The notes under the pieces: model-generated | Database searches by the model: none | The model's input: only the letters and a program-made list of their open reading frames with translations | What the model was told of the DNA's origin: nothing | Position numbers and translations under genes: made by a program | Virus record (IMG/VR): IMGVR_UViG_3300037076_000473 | Location: 1-41,353 of that record | From: a virus | Length of the DNA stretch: 41,353 nt | Direction: 5' to 3' (one strand) | Shown: in pieces, positions 1 to 41,353 of the stretch | Numbering within the stretch: position 1 is the stretch's first letter | Layout: each line of letters begins with the position of its first letter

Positions 1-603
1 TCATCCTTTCCCGATCAGGCGTACGAAATCATCGTAGGAACTGAACCCTGCCAGCATCTTCCCATTACAGAGGTGGGTCGGCACGGCATTTATCCGCATC
101 TCTCTTGCCCGTTGCCAGTCGGCATCAACCGATGACGCAAAGCTCCGTTCCGAGAGAACCGTCCGCGCTTCATCCACCGGAAGTCCAACGGACCCGGTAA
201 TCCGAATCAGTTCGTCACTCAGCGCAATGTTACTCCCATCGACAAAATAAGCCCGGTAGACGGCGCGGCGGAACGGATCGCCCGTACCCCGCGATTCTGC
301 CCATTTCCCTAATTCCTGGGCTAATCTGCTGTTGCAGGTGCGTGTCCGTATCGCCAGCGGAAGTCCCTCAGCAGCGGCCACTTTGGCCAGCCTTGCCTGC
401 ATAGCCGCGATATCAGCCTCACGTCCGGCAAAGAGTTCAGAAAGTTCCATCCCTTCTACGGGTGTTTCCGGATGGAGGGGAAAGACACTCCAGTGCAGTT
501 CAATCCCATATTCCTGCTGCAGTCGATCGGTACGCACGGTACCGAGGTAACACCAGGGTCAGATATAGTCGAAGAAGACTTCTACAACGGGAGTCGTGTC
601 CAT
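1..603 (-). CDS. FrnE/DsbA-family thiol oxidoreductase, probable selenoprotein (TGA = Sec at codon 15)
   Basis: Host gene. DsbA/FrnE proteins are thioredoxin-fold thiol-disulfide oxidoreductases with an N-terminal CPWC active site. Reading from the ATG at 603-601 gives MDTTPVVEVFFDYI, then TGA (561-559), then PWCYLGTVRTDRLQQ, and continues open to the stop at 3-1. The TGA sits exactly where the family has the first active-site Cys, so the motif reads U-P-W-C. The rest matches the family, including a late cis-Pro loop (INAVPTHLCNGK). A hairpin fitting a bacterial SECIS element follows the TGA. The start is supported by a GAGGTG six bases upstream and by the conserved beta-strand ahead of the motif. 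A caller that stops at TGA would give only a truncated GTG-started ORF (537-1). No signal peptide is seen, so the protein is probably cytoplasmic. The alternative is a nonsense mutation of Cys. Confidence 0.88.
527..545 (-). promoter_or_regulatory. SECIS-like hairpin after the in-frame TGA
   Basis: On the minus strand TCGGTAC (545-539) pairs perfectly with GTACCGA (533-527), giving a 7-bp stem with the 5-base loop CGTGC. The first loop G (537) lies 21 bases after the TGA. Bacterial SECIS elements recognised by SelB are short hairpins inside the coding region with a G in a small apical loop roughly 16-37 bases after the UGA, so position and shape fit. SelB binding itself is inference. Confidence 0.75.
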
Positions 604-2725: not shown

Positions 2726-3220
2726 ATGACGAAAAAAACAGACACAATCCCGGCCGGGCAATTGAGTTTGTTCGAGGCCGCCGTCAGGGCCGAACTGGCC
2801 GCTCAAACCGAACCGTTGCCCGGCAGCCTCAACATCAAATTCCCGGTGATCGCATCACTCACCTCGGCCTTGCGCCACTCCGGCAAATCCCGCGAGCAGA
2901 TCGCCGATGAAATGACCGTCTACCTCGGCGAAGAGATCACCGTCCACATGATCAACGCCTGGGTCTGCCAGTCCAAGGAAAATCACCGTTTTCCCCTCGA
3001 ATATTTGCCCGCCTTCCGCAAAGCCACTAACAACCTGGAAGCGCTCAATGTCACATCACGCGCCTGTGGCGCCTTCACCCTGCGCGGACCGGACGCGCTG
3101 CGAGCCGATATCCGCAAGCTGGATGAACAAAAACAGGCCAACAAAGAAAAAGACCGGGCACTGGAAGCAGAGAAGAAGCGGCTGGAGACACTATTACAGG
3201 AAGTGGAGGCACGCGCATGA
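2726..3220 (+). CDS. Early phage protein with C-terminal coiled coil
   Basis: 164 residues, function unknown. Residues 40-100 contain a segment SGKSREQIADEMTVYLGEEI resembling a helical DNA-binding fold of the kind seen in proteins just upstream of Mu-type transposases. Residues 125-164 are a Lys/Glu-rich coiled coil. It follows the Ner-like gene by one base and overlaps the transposase start as ATGA, so all three are translated together. A role assisting or regulating transposition is inferred from position only. Confidence 0.7.
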   Translation: MTKKTDTIPAGQLSLFEAAVRAELAAQTEPLPGSLNIKFPVIASLTSALRHSGKSREQIADEMTVYLGEEITVHMINAWVCQSKENHRFPLEYLPAFRKATNNLEALNVTSRACGAFTLRGPDALRADIRKLDEQKQANKEKDRALEAEKKRLETLLQEVEARA

Positions 3221-5415
3221 GCATCAAGGGCCACTACACCGCCAAAGAGCTGGAAGGCCTGCCAGGCTTGCCGGAAACAGAAAGCGCCATTATCCGCCTT
3301 GCCAAACGCGAAAACTGGCCCTTCCAAAAGCGCGCAGGTCGCGGCGGTGGCCGTGAATACTCCCTGTTTTCACTCCCTGCAGAGACCCGCCAGGCCCTGG
3401 CCAAGCAAAACACAAAGGTAAGCATCGCCTCCCCGGCCGTTCAATCGGCCGCCAACCAGATCCAGCTCTCTGCAGAGGAACAGGAAAAACAGCGCCAGGC
3501 CGCCCGCGCCCAGTCCCTGGCCACCTTCAAGTCCCTGCCTCCCTGGCAGCGCCGTGGCGCAGACGCCAAGCTGGCCATCATCCACGCCTGCAGCTTCTAT
3601 GTCACCGGCAGCGGCCTGGGCCGCACCGCCGGGCAGGACGCCTTCTGCTACGAATACAACATGGGCCGGATCTACGTGCACGAGATGGTCCGGGCCGAGA
3701 TCCGCCAGATCCACCCAGGGACATTGCGCAGCTGGATCCGCGAAGAGTACGAATTCGGCGCCATGGGCCTGGTCGACATGTACGGCAACCGCAAGGGGCA
3801 GTCCAAGATCGAAACCAGCCCGGTCCTGAAGGCCGCCATAGACAGCCTGCTGGACAGCAAACCGCACATCAAGAGCTGCCACATCAACGAATTCATCCAG
3901 GCCCACTGTCTGGATCAGCCGCGCATCAGTACCAAAAGCATCGAGCGCTACCGCACCCAGCGAGCCTCGGCCGACCCCCAGCGCACCCTGCTGGCCACCA
4001 ACCCCGACAAATTCAAGAGCCACATGCAGCCCGCCTTCGGCAGCCGCAGCGAGGGCATCATCAACCTCAACCAGCTCTGGGAATTCGACGCCACCCCCGC
4101 CGACGTCATGCTGGTCGACGGCCGCCACAGCGTCCTGGGCATGATCGACGTCTACAGCCGCCGCATGAAGCTGCTCGTATCCAAAACCAGCCGCACCGTC
4201 ATGGTCAATACCCTCATGCGTCGCGGCCTGATGGACTTCGGCGTACCCGACGCCATCAAAACCGACAACGGCCAGGATTACACCTCCGAGCACTTCGAGC
4301 GCGTCCTGGGCGACCTGGAGATCTATCACGACCTGTGCGACCCCTTCAGCGGCGATCAGAAACCGCACATCGAGCGCGGCCTAGGCTCCTTCTCGCACGA
4401 CCTGGTCGAGCTGCTGCCCGGCTACATCGGCCACAACGTTGCCGATCGCAAGGATATCGAGAGCCGCAAGACCTTCGCCCAGCGCCTGAAAGACCCGGAT
4501 CACGTCATCGAGGTCAACATGACCGCCGCCGACTTCCAGGCATTCTGCGACAACTGGTGCACCGCCTACCATCAGCGCATCCACTCCACCCTGGGCAGAT
4601 CACCCGGCACCATGGCCAACGAATGGCCCGGCCAGATCCGCGCCATCAGCGAAGAGCGGGCCCTGGACGTCCTCCTGGCCACCGCACCGCGTCACGGCGG
4701 CCTGCGCGCCGCCACCAAGCGCGGCGTCAAGGTCGAGCGCTACTGGTACATCGACCCCGCCCTGGTCTCCTGGATCGGCAAGGGCCGCATACTGCAGGTT
4801 CTCCACGAGCCCGAAGACCTGGGCCGGGTCATCATCCAGGGGCCGAACGAATTCGGCGTCTACGAGCATATCTGCGTCGCCGTCTGTACCGAGATCCTGG
4901 GCATATCCCGCGCCGAGCTGGCCAGGGCCACCAACGAAGCCTGGAAATTGCACACCGCCGAGCTGCGCGCCGACCTCAAGCGCAGCAAGAACGTGCTCAA
5001 GAACGCCCCGGCCGCCGACATCATCATGGCCGCCCGGATGCAGGACGCCGGCAAGGTAGTAGCGCTGCCGCGCCCCACCATCGAATACAGCACACCTGGC
5101 CTGGTTGCTGCCAAAGCAGCCACCGACGTCCTGGACAACATACAACCGGCCGCCCCGGTCGCCTCCCCCGAAGTACAGGCCATGAAAGAGCGCCTGAAAG
5201 GTGAGATGGAGCGGGACAAAGCGCTCGGCATCGCCACCATCCAGGTTGAATCGCGCAAAGCCAGGTACGAGCGCATGAAGCGCCTGCGCCAGACCTTGAC
5301 CGACGGCGAGGATATCTTGCCTGAAGAATATATAGCCCTGCGTGGATACGAAATGACCAGTGAGCACAAAGCAATGAAGGGATTGGAAGAAGAAGCGCAG
5401 CAGGCAGTCAAGTAG
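3217..5415 (+). CDS. A: Mu-type DDE transposase A
   Basis: 732-residue transposase that cuts and joins phage ends to target DNA for integration and replicative transposition. The N-terminal part (about 1-60) is the Mu winged-helix enhancer-binding domain, followed by end-binding helical domains. The integrase core shows D291 (WEFDATPAD), D350 (KTDNGQDY) and E386 (KPHIERG), with 35 residues between the last two, the classic DD35E. A beta-barrel region follows (about 505-560, RGVKVERYWYIDPALVSWIG), then a charged C-terminal tail that in Mu contacts B and ClpX. Length is somewhat above MuA (663). Start ATG overlaps the preceding stop. Likely substrates are the sites at 772-940. Confidence 0.97.
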   Translation: MSIKGHYTAKELEGLPGLPETESAIIRLAKRENWPFQKRAGRGGGREYSLFSLPAETRQALAKQNTKVSIASPAVQSAANQIQLSAEEQEKQRQAARAQSLATFKSLPPWQRRGADAKLAIIHACSFYVTGSGLGRTAGQDAFCYEYNMGRIYVHEMVRAEIRQIHPGTLRSWIREEYEFGAMGLVDMYGNRKGQSKIETSPVLKAAIDSLLDSKPHIKSCHINEFIQAHCLDQPRISTKSIERYRTQRASADPQRTLLATNPDKFKSHMQPAFGSRSEGIINLNQLWEFDATPADVMLVDGRHSVLGMIDVYSRRMKLLVSKTSRTVMVNTLMRRGLMDFGVPDAIKTDNGQDYTSEHFERVLGDLEIYHDLCDPFSGDQKPHIERGLGSFSHDLVELLPGYIGHNVADRKDIESRKTFAQRLKDPDHVIEVNMTAADFQAFCDNWCTAYHQRIHSTLGRSPGTMANEWPGQIRAISEERALDVLLATAPRHGGLRAATKRGVKVERYWYIDPALVSWIGKGRILQVLHEPEDLGRVIIQGPNEFGVYEHICVAVCTEILGISRAELARATNEAWKLHTAELRADLKRSKNVLKNAPAADIIMAARMQDAGKVVALPRPTIEYSTPGLVAAKAATDVLDNIQPAAPVASPEVQAMKERLKGEMERDKALGIATIQVESRKARYERMKRLRQTLTDGEDILPEEYIALRGYEMTSEHKAMKGLEEEAQQAVK

Positions 5416-5487: not shown

Positions 5488-6237
5488 ATGTCACAAACCG
5501 CCCAACCTGTCAAGGGCTCCGTAGCCCACCTCAACAACGTAGCCCTGGCAGCCGTCTGCATGCAGCGGCTCCTGGAGGCATCCAGCCACCTGCCAAGGAT
5601 CGGCGTCCTCTACGGCAAATCCGGCCTCGGCAAGTCGTTCGCCGCCTGTTACCTGGTCAACCGCTACAACGCCTACCGCATCGAATGCAAAAGCGTCTGG
5701 AACCGCAAAACTGTCCTCGAGGAGATCCTCCAGCGCATGGGAATCATGCCGGGCAAAACTATGCCGGTCATGCTCAACCAGGTCTGTGCCCAGCTGCAGA
5801 TCAGCGGCCGGCCGCTGATCATCGATGAGATGGATCACCTGGTCGACAAAAGCGCCGTAGAGGTTGTCCGGGACATCTTCGACGGCAGCCAGGCCCCCAT
5901 CCTGCTGATCGGAGAGGAAAACATACCCGGCAAGCTGGAGCGCTGGGAGCGCGTGCACAGCCGGGTCCTGGACTGGACCGCCGCGCAGAAGCTCGACCTG
6001 GAAGACGCCCAGACACTGGCCGATTTTTACTGCCGGGGCATCGCCGTCGAGCCGGATCTGCTGGCGCAGATCCACAGGATGTCAGACGGATCAGCCCGGC
6101 GCATCTGCGTCAACCTGGAGCTGATCGAAGAGATCGCCCGCCGCTCCGGCCTCACCAGCATCAACCTGGACGCCCTGAAAACCTCCGGCCAGACTCTTTA
6201 TACCGGCCGCTCGCCGGTCAAAGGTGGCAGCAAATGA
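5488..6237 (+). CDS. B: Transposition ATPase B (AAA+, target selection)
   Basis: 249-residue AAA+ ATPase. MuB binds DNA as ATP-dependent filaments, brings target DNA to the transpososome and stimulates A. The Walker A motif GKSGLGKS is at residues 43-50 and Walker B LIIDEMD has D113/E114. The C-terminal part (DGSARRICVNLELIEEIARR) has the usual helical lid. It lacks a separate N-terminal HTH extension as in Mu B (312 aa), so it is the shorter variant. GGAGG precedes the ATG; the stop overlaps the next start as ATGA. Confidence 0.95.
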   Translation: MSQTAQPVKGSVAHLNNVALAAVCMQRLLEASSHLPRIGVLYGKSGLGKSFAACYLVNRYNAYRIECKSVWNRKTVLEEILQRMGIMPGKTMPVMLNQVCAQLQISGRPLIIDEMDHLVDKSAVEVVRDIFDGSQAPILLIGEENIPGKLERWERVHSRVLDWTAAQKLDLEDAQTLADFYCRGIAVEPDLLAQIHRMSDGSARRICVNLELIEEIARRSGLTSINLDALKTSGQTLYTGRSPVKGGSK

Positions 6238-40585: not shown

Positions 40586-41353
40586 ATGAGACATTATCCG
40601 ATTCTTGCTTGGCCGGGCGGCAAGCGCCGTCTGGCCAAGGTTTTACTCCCCATCATCGCCAGCCGTCCGCATACCTGTTATGTGGAGGAGTTTGCCGGTG
40701 GGGGATCCATGTTCTTTCTCAGGCAGCCGGCAGAGGTGGAGGTTTTAAACGACCTTAATGGTGAGGTTATCAACCTGTACCGGGTCGTTAAAAACCACCT
40801 GGATGAATTCATCAGGCAGTTCCGTTTTGCCGTGGCCAGCAGGGAGCTGTTCGAGCTTAACAAAGATACGCCGCCCCATGTTCTGACCGACGTGCAGCGG
40901 GCCGCTCGTTTCCTTTATGTGCAGAAGCTGTCATTCGGCGGCAAGGTCAGTTCCAACTCTTTCGGCACTTCACCCAGCTCGCCGCCCAGGTTCAACATCC
41001 TCCGCCTCGAGGAGGATCTCAGCCAGGCGCATCTCCGGCTGTCAAGGGTATGGATCGAACACCTTGGTTGGCAGGAGTGTCTGCAGAAGTGGGACCGTGA
41101 TTATACGTTGCACTTCATGGATCCACCATACTGGGAAACAGAGGGCTACGGCGTACCATTTCCCCTGGAGGAGTACGGCAAAATTGCCGAGTCGATGAGG
41201 GCCATGAAGGGCGCTGCAATCCTCACAATTAACGATCACCCGGAAATGCGGCGGATATTCAAGGGATTTAAGATGGCAACTGTCGAGATTAACTACACAA
41301 TAGGCGGGGCAGGCAAGGGTCAAAAGAGGCGAGAGCTGATCTTTCAAAACTGA
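40586..41353 (+). CDS. DNA adenine methyltransferase (D12/Dam class)
   Basis: 255 residues, complete. N6-adenine methyltransferases of the D12 class use S-adenosylmethionine. Motifs are WPGGKRRLA (residues 9-17), FAGGGSMFF (36-44), NDLNGEVINLYR and catalytic DPPY (179-182). An AAAGGG lies about eight bases before the ATG. It sits near the right end, where Mu carries mom; protection of phage DNA against host restriction is a likely role, by analogy. Recognition sequence cannot be told. Confidence 0.94.
   Translation: MRHYPILAWPGGKRRLAKVLLPIIASRPHTCYVEEFAGGGSMFFLRQPAEVEVLNDLNGEVINLYRVVKNHLDEFIRQFRFAVASRELFELNKDTPPHVLTDVQRAARFLYVQKLSFGGKVSSNSFGTSPSSPPRFNILRLEEDLSQAHLRLSRVWIEHLGWQECLQKWDRDYTLHFMDPPYWETEGYGVPFPLEEYGKIAESMRAMKGAAILTINDHPEMRRIFKGFKMATVEINYTIGGAGKGQKRRELIFQN

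Follow-up and report, generated by a model that had tools for sequence, protein, structure and literature searches.

The first 603 nucleotides of the window, by which we mean the whole 41,353-nucleotide stretch analysed here (IMG/VR virus record IMGVR_UViG_3300037076_000473), hold a reverse-strand gene that reads MDTTPVVEVFFDYI-TGA-PWCYLGTVR... and forms a single 200-residue frame if the TGA at codon 15 is decoded (Table 1). The first stop after codon 15 in this FrnE-like frame is the TGA at its end, and the frame is closed by a TAA 24 nt before the ATG, with no other start codon between this TAA and the TGA at codon 15. The list of open reading frames made with translation table 11 holds just a 178-residue frame here, and because its GTG start lies 8 codons past the TGA, the active site is missing from it, as was foreseen in the original prediction that standard gene calling would lose this part of the protein.

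Table 1. Features of the window, in window coordinates.
Feature	Position	Strand	Basis or remark
FrnE/DsbA-like gene, very probable selenoprotein, 200 aa	1–603	−	ATG at 603, TGA stop at 3–1; Pfam, alignment, predicted model
Predicted selenocysteine (Sec) codon TGA (U15), first residue of the UxxC (U-P-W-C) redox motif	559–561	−	Frame, aligned relatives
TGT codon, Cys18 of UPWC, predicted resolving residue	550–552	−	Frame, alignment
Pro175, invariant in the alignment	79–81	−	Alignment, predicted model
Putative bacterial SECIS hairpin	527–545	−	5' arm 545–539, loop CGUGC 538–534, 3' arm 533–527
Probable ribosome-binding site GAGGTG	608–613	−	By eye
Truncated ORF that a standard caller would annotate, 178 aa	1–537	−	GTG start; table-11 ORF list
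Mu-like prophage	770–41353		Left end at about 770 (TGTGAC...), right end outside the window
S24-type repressor	1464–2210	−	
MuA-like transposase	3217–5415		
AAA protein, MuB position	5488–6237		
D12-class adenine methyltransferase	40586–41353		Record stops after it

The location of this gene at the edge of a prophage, in a record catalogued as a virus, would favour reading frnE as cargo of the Mu-like phage instead of as a host gene. However, homology between the window and a related phage (L090) starts only at the TGTGAC at 770, outside the gene; sequence to the left of this point is unrelated, and L090 does not carry frnE. With this boundary, about 167 nt separate the frnE start codon from the left end of the prophage, which lies upstream of it. 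The close relatives that we fetched all lie in bacterial genomes, a scan of viral contigs with the protein returned no relatives, and a tblastn search against plasmids and phages gave distant matches alone, with at most 36% identity among the matches listed. We consider phage cargo highly improbable, and these sequence comparisons support frnE as part of the host flank of the prophage, in keeping with the host origin originally predicted. The host is probably a bacterium of the class that holds the Geobacteraceae, and the prophage may have separated frnE from its promoter. Among 20 frnE loci, no gene neighbours were shared beyond small groups, so gene context offers no functional inference.

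The read-through protein matched the DSBA domain (PF01323) across residues 6–197 with 115.8 bits against a cut-off of 25.6 (2.7e-33), and Deinococcus radiodurans FrnE aligned with it from residue 7, placing its CPWCY opposite U-PWCY. Both of the claims made earlier about this site, that the TGA stands where the first Cys of a CPWC motif belongs and that homologous sequence continues on either side of it, thus hold. The nearest solved structures by sequence were D. radiodurans FrnE (1e-18) and then Streptomyces coelicolor SCO1869, and these same two proteins made up the top six PDB matches of an AlphaFold2 model built from 23 aligned sequences (mean pLDDT 95.6), the best being FrnE 5cp1 with a TM-score of 0.91. 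Conservation extends along the protein downstream of the TGA, with Cys18 and Pro175 invariant, and residues 1–22, which take in the first strand and UPWCY, are as conserved as the remainder. We take Pro175 to be the cis-proline that is expected to face the active site of a thioredoxin fold, the cis form being assigned from knowledge of the fold. The UGA falls at the first Cys of the motif, where Cys homologues (L002, L003, L056 and 5cnw) align, so that the protein combines PF01323 with a UxxC arrangement. It also combines the predicted FrnE fold with the CP(W/F)C motif of that subfamily, in the form UPWC, with predicted Sec in place of the first Cys.

FrnE proteins are predicted cytoplasmic thiol oxidoreductases, and the D. 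radiodurans enzyme is a disulfide reductase whose C-terminal CxxxxC motif helps to regenerate the active site (PMC8945050). The window protein resembles D. radiodurans FrnE (DR_0659; PDB 5cnw and 5cp1) in predicted fold, in the position of the CPWC motif and in predicted cytoplasmic location, whereas the latter has Cys at motif position 1, is longer and carries the C-terminal CxxxxC, which we did not find in the window protein, ending as it does at residue 200. Since some FrnE proteins lack this motif (PMC8945050), its absence does not exclude membership of the subfamily. The window protein has no signal peptide and no N-terminal extension ahead of the first strand, which makes a cytoplasmic location likely. 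The predicted model suggests that the product is probably a cytoplasmic thioredoxin-fold oxidoreductase with a helical insert.

We detected the TGA well beyond the window. A contig scan of genomes recovered a gammaproteobacterial MAG copy (L001, 46% identity) with TGA at the same codon, as well as two Geobacteraceae MAGs with TGC at that position. In profile searches, 17 of the 48 Geobacteraceae-family genomes contained relatives, as did 73 of the 277 from the class to which the Geobacteraceae MAG G003 and its family belong, and 119 of the 201 from the family of L001. One in-frame TGA was present in 75 of the 80 copies found in the class of G003, and a high-scoring copy that likewise holds one occurred in about 50 genomes of the L001 family. 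Among fetched loci from the Geobacteraceae class and the L001 family, where the codon-15 position itself was checked, the TGA aligned with codon 15 in 62 distinct sequences, the window included; in unfetched copies it is presumed to lie at the same position. Alignment with FrnE homologues, which had been proposed as a check, gave Cys or predicted Sec at codon 15, the Cys versions being TGC in L002 and L003 and TGT in L056. The existence of these Cys versions could be taken to mean that codon 15 of the window is truly TGC or TGT and was misread, or that the gene is a recent nonsense mutant or pseudogene. The outcome named in advance as damaging to the prediction was TGC or TGT in related strains with the TGA confined to the window, and it did not occur. 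Instead, TGA recurs at the same codon in dozens of assemblies made independently, in which frame and protein are intact apart from it, so it is not a read error, and the hairpin described below is under selection. We give an error or a pseudogene almost no credence.

A candidate bacterial SECIS hairpin begins shortly after the UGA, with a 7-bp stem, a 5-nt loop with G at loop position 2, a spacing of 20 nt from the UGA and a folding energy of −9.5 kcal/mol for the folded window piece. The bSECISearch model, as summarised in PMC13188914, describes a loop of 3–9 nt, a stem of 4–16 bp, G at loop position 1 or 2, a distance of 16–37 nt from the UGA and an MFE of −7.5 or lower, and the window hairpin lies inside this model on loop, stem, G position, spacing and MFE, so that the SECIS check suggested with the original prediction came out in its favour. 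The stems of gammaproteobacterial relatives, in contrast, contain a G-U pair and reach −5.9 kcal/mol over the folded piece, weaker than the −7.5 limit. A search of the whole window against Rfam at the gathering cut-off gave no match, a result that is uninformative for SECIS elements.

The stem covaries: across 25 distinct sequences, 99.4% of cells were paired and three of the seven pairs had changed on both sides, while every slid control fell far below this level of pairing. Pair 19/33 was AU in 29 and GC in 24 of 54 sequences. Where codon 21 is GGT, it pairs with ACC at codon 25, and where it is AGT, it pairs with ACT or ATT, showing that the silent third base of codon 25 follows its stem partner. 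When the window sequence was recoded synonymously, seven pairs were reached in 108 of 20,000 recodings. The hairpin is under selection beyond the protein sequence. These observations bear on the reading in which the TGA is a real stop and translation restarts at the nearby GTG 537 to yield a protein without an active site. The closeness of that GTG fits a restart, but a hairpin placed for SelB would then serve no purpose, residues 1–22 would have no reason to be conserved like the rest, and the thioredoxin fold of the predicted model would lose its first strand, all of which makes a restart exceedingly unlikely.

Machinery for Sec insertion, which had been proposed as a check and was searched for in relatives as SelA, SelB and tRNA-Sec, was widespread among them. 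Of the 48 genomes of the Geobacteraceae family, 43 had SelB and 42 had tRNA-Sec above the cut-off; SelB reached it in every genome of this family with a main-clade TGA copy, and a full-scoring tRNA-Sec was not found in three of these (G002, G003 and G004). In each of three genomes of the family (G009, G030 and G040), selB and tRNA-Sec were both found twice, with selB above the cut-off and tRNA-Sec at full length. Among 16 chosen relatives, we detected SelA in 15, SelB in 14 and tRNA-Sec in 15. SelA, SelB and tRNA-Sec were not found in G127, which has a TGA copy (L046, G127:C34:75748-76332), and this assembly is perhaps incomplete. The relatives that carry SelA, SelB and tRNA-Sec suggest that the window host may have Sec machinery of its own. 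Recoding of another kind, in which a near-cognate or suppressor tRNA would insert Trp or Cys at the UGA, or the genetic code would assign UGA to Trp, found no support in this analysis and is hardly credible, given that TGA is the normal stop of the window gene and of many homologous genes, that the alternative at codon 15 within the clade is Cys and never Trp, and that relatives have tRNA-Sec and SelB.

Taken as a Sec codon, the UGA would be decoded through SelB, which with Sec-tRNA-Sec is expected, from the machinery and the SECIS element, to bind the hairpin just 3' of the UGA and so to allow selenocysteine at codon 15. By analogy with FrnE and thioredoxin chemistry, Sec15 would act as a low-pKa nucleophile exchanging with substrate disulfides and Cys18 would resolve it. 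The reaction would probably run towards disulfide reduction or repair, with a likely role in thiol redox balance. We are highly confident that the host chromosome encodes here an FrnE-type protein that belongs to the DsbA-like (UxxC) selenoproteins, with a predicted SelB-decoded Sec15 as its nucleophile.

DsbA-like UxxC selenoproteins (COG2761) were first described in 2005 from the Sargasso Sea selenoproteome (PMC1088965), were listed in 2006 in Desulfovibrio, Anaeromyxobacter and Desulfotomaculum (PMC1794560) and were counted in 41 organisms in 2016 (PMC5029168); the family (form 1; COG2761 / PF01323) is also listed in PMC13188914, PMC9312934 and PMC5029168. Literature searches with the name FrnE together with selenoprotein or selenocysteine gave nothing relevant, the family being published as DsbA-like, COG2761. 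The window protein has in common with it the Pfam family, predicted Sec as the first residue of UxxC and a downstream bSECIS element, a likeness to the published family (reference NIP15863.1) that is drawn from PF01323, motif and bSECIS, with COG2761 being the published assignment. The window gene is a well-supported further member of a selenoprotein family known since 2005, and it leaves the current understanding of selenoproteins unchanged. The redox enzyme that it encodes loses its active site in standard gene calling, and in its clade the Sec form is the rule. For annotators, it adds a family backed by covariation and present in relatives of the Geobacteraceae and in a gammaproteobacterial lineage; for biochemists, it offers closely matched Sec/Cys pairs such as L062 and L056.

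In a maximum-likelihood tree of 68 proteins, the window protein fell within Sec sequences from the Geobacteraceae class, and the Cys sequences were nested inside the Sec clade. Two Geobacteraceae genomes carry both Sec and Cys paralogues (L002/L009 with L025, and L003/L008 with L026, L025 and L026 being the Sec copies). L056 (TGT) groups with L062 (TGA), and both have the same hairpin; as close kin differing at codon 15 (G447 and G434, respectively), they point either to a recent exchange between Sec and Cys or to a wrong base in one of the assemblies. Stem pairs remaining in Cys copies number 7 of 7 in L003, 6 of 7 in L056 and only 5 of 7 in L002, a pattern that would fit a hairpin decaying slowly once Cys has replaced Sec. 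A distant FrnE with 29% identity (L024:1558-2070, reverse strand) likewise has TGA at this residue, in the motif U-PFC, and a hairpin of its own, GGCUGGC-GGA-GCCAGCC, and its relative L023 has TGC. We see an even chance that Sec is ancestral and dominant in this clade, as one subfamily of FrnE, that Cys copies (L002/L003 and L056) arose repeatedly with some SECIS-like hairpins kept, and that Sec in the L024 clade is independent. If so, these genes would offer a natural series in which to study how Cys replaces Sec. Separately, one genome holds a second frnE copy (G435:C19:35185-35781) in which the match contains one TAG besides one TGA, and this paralogue may be decaying.
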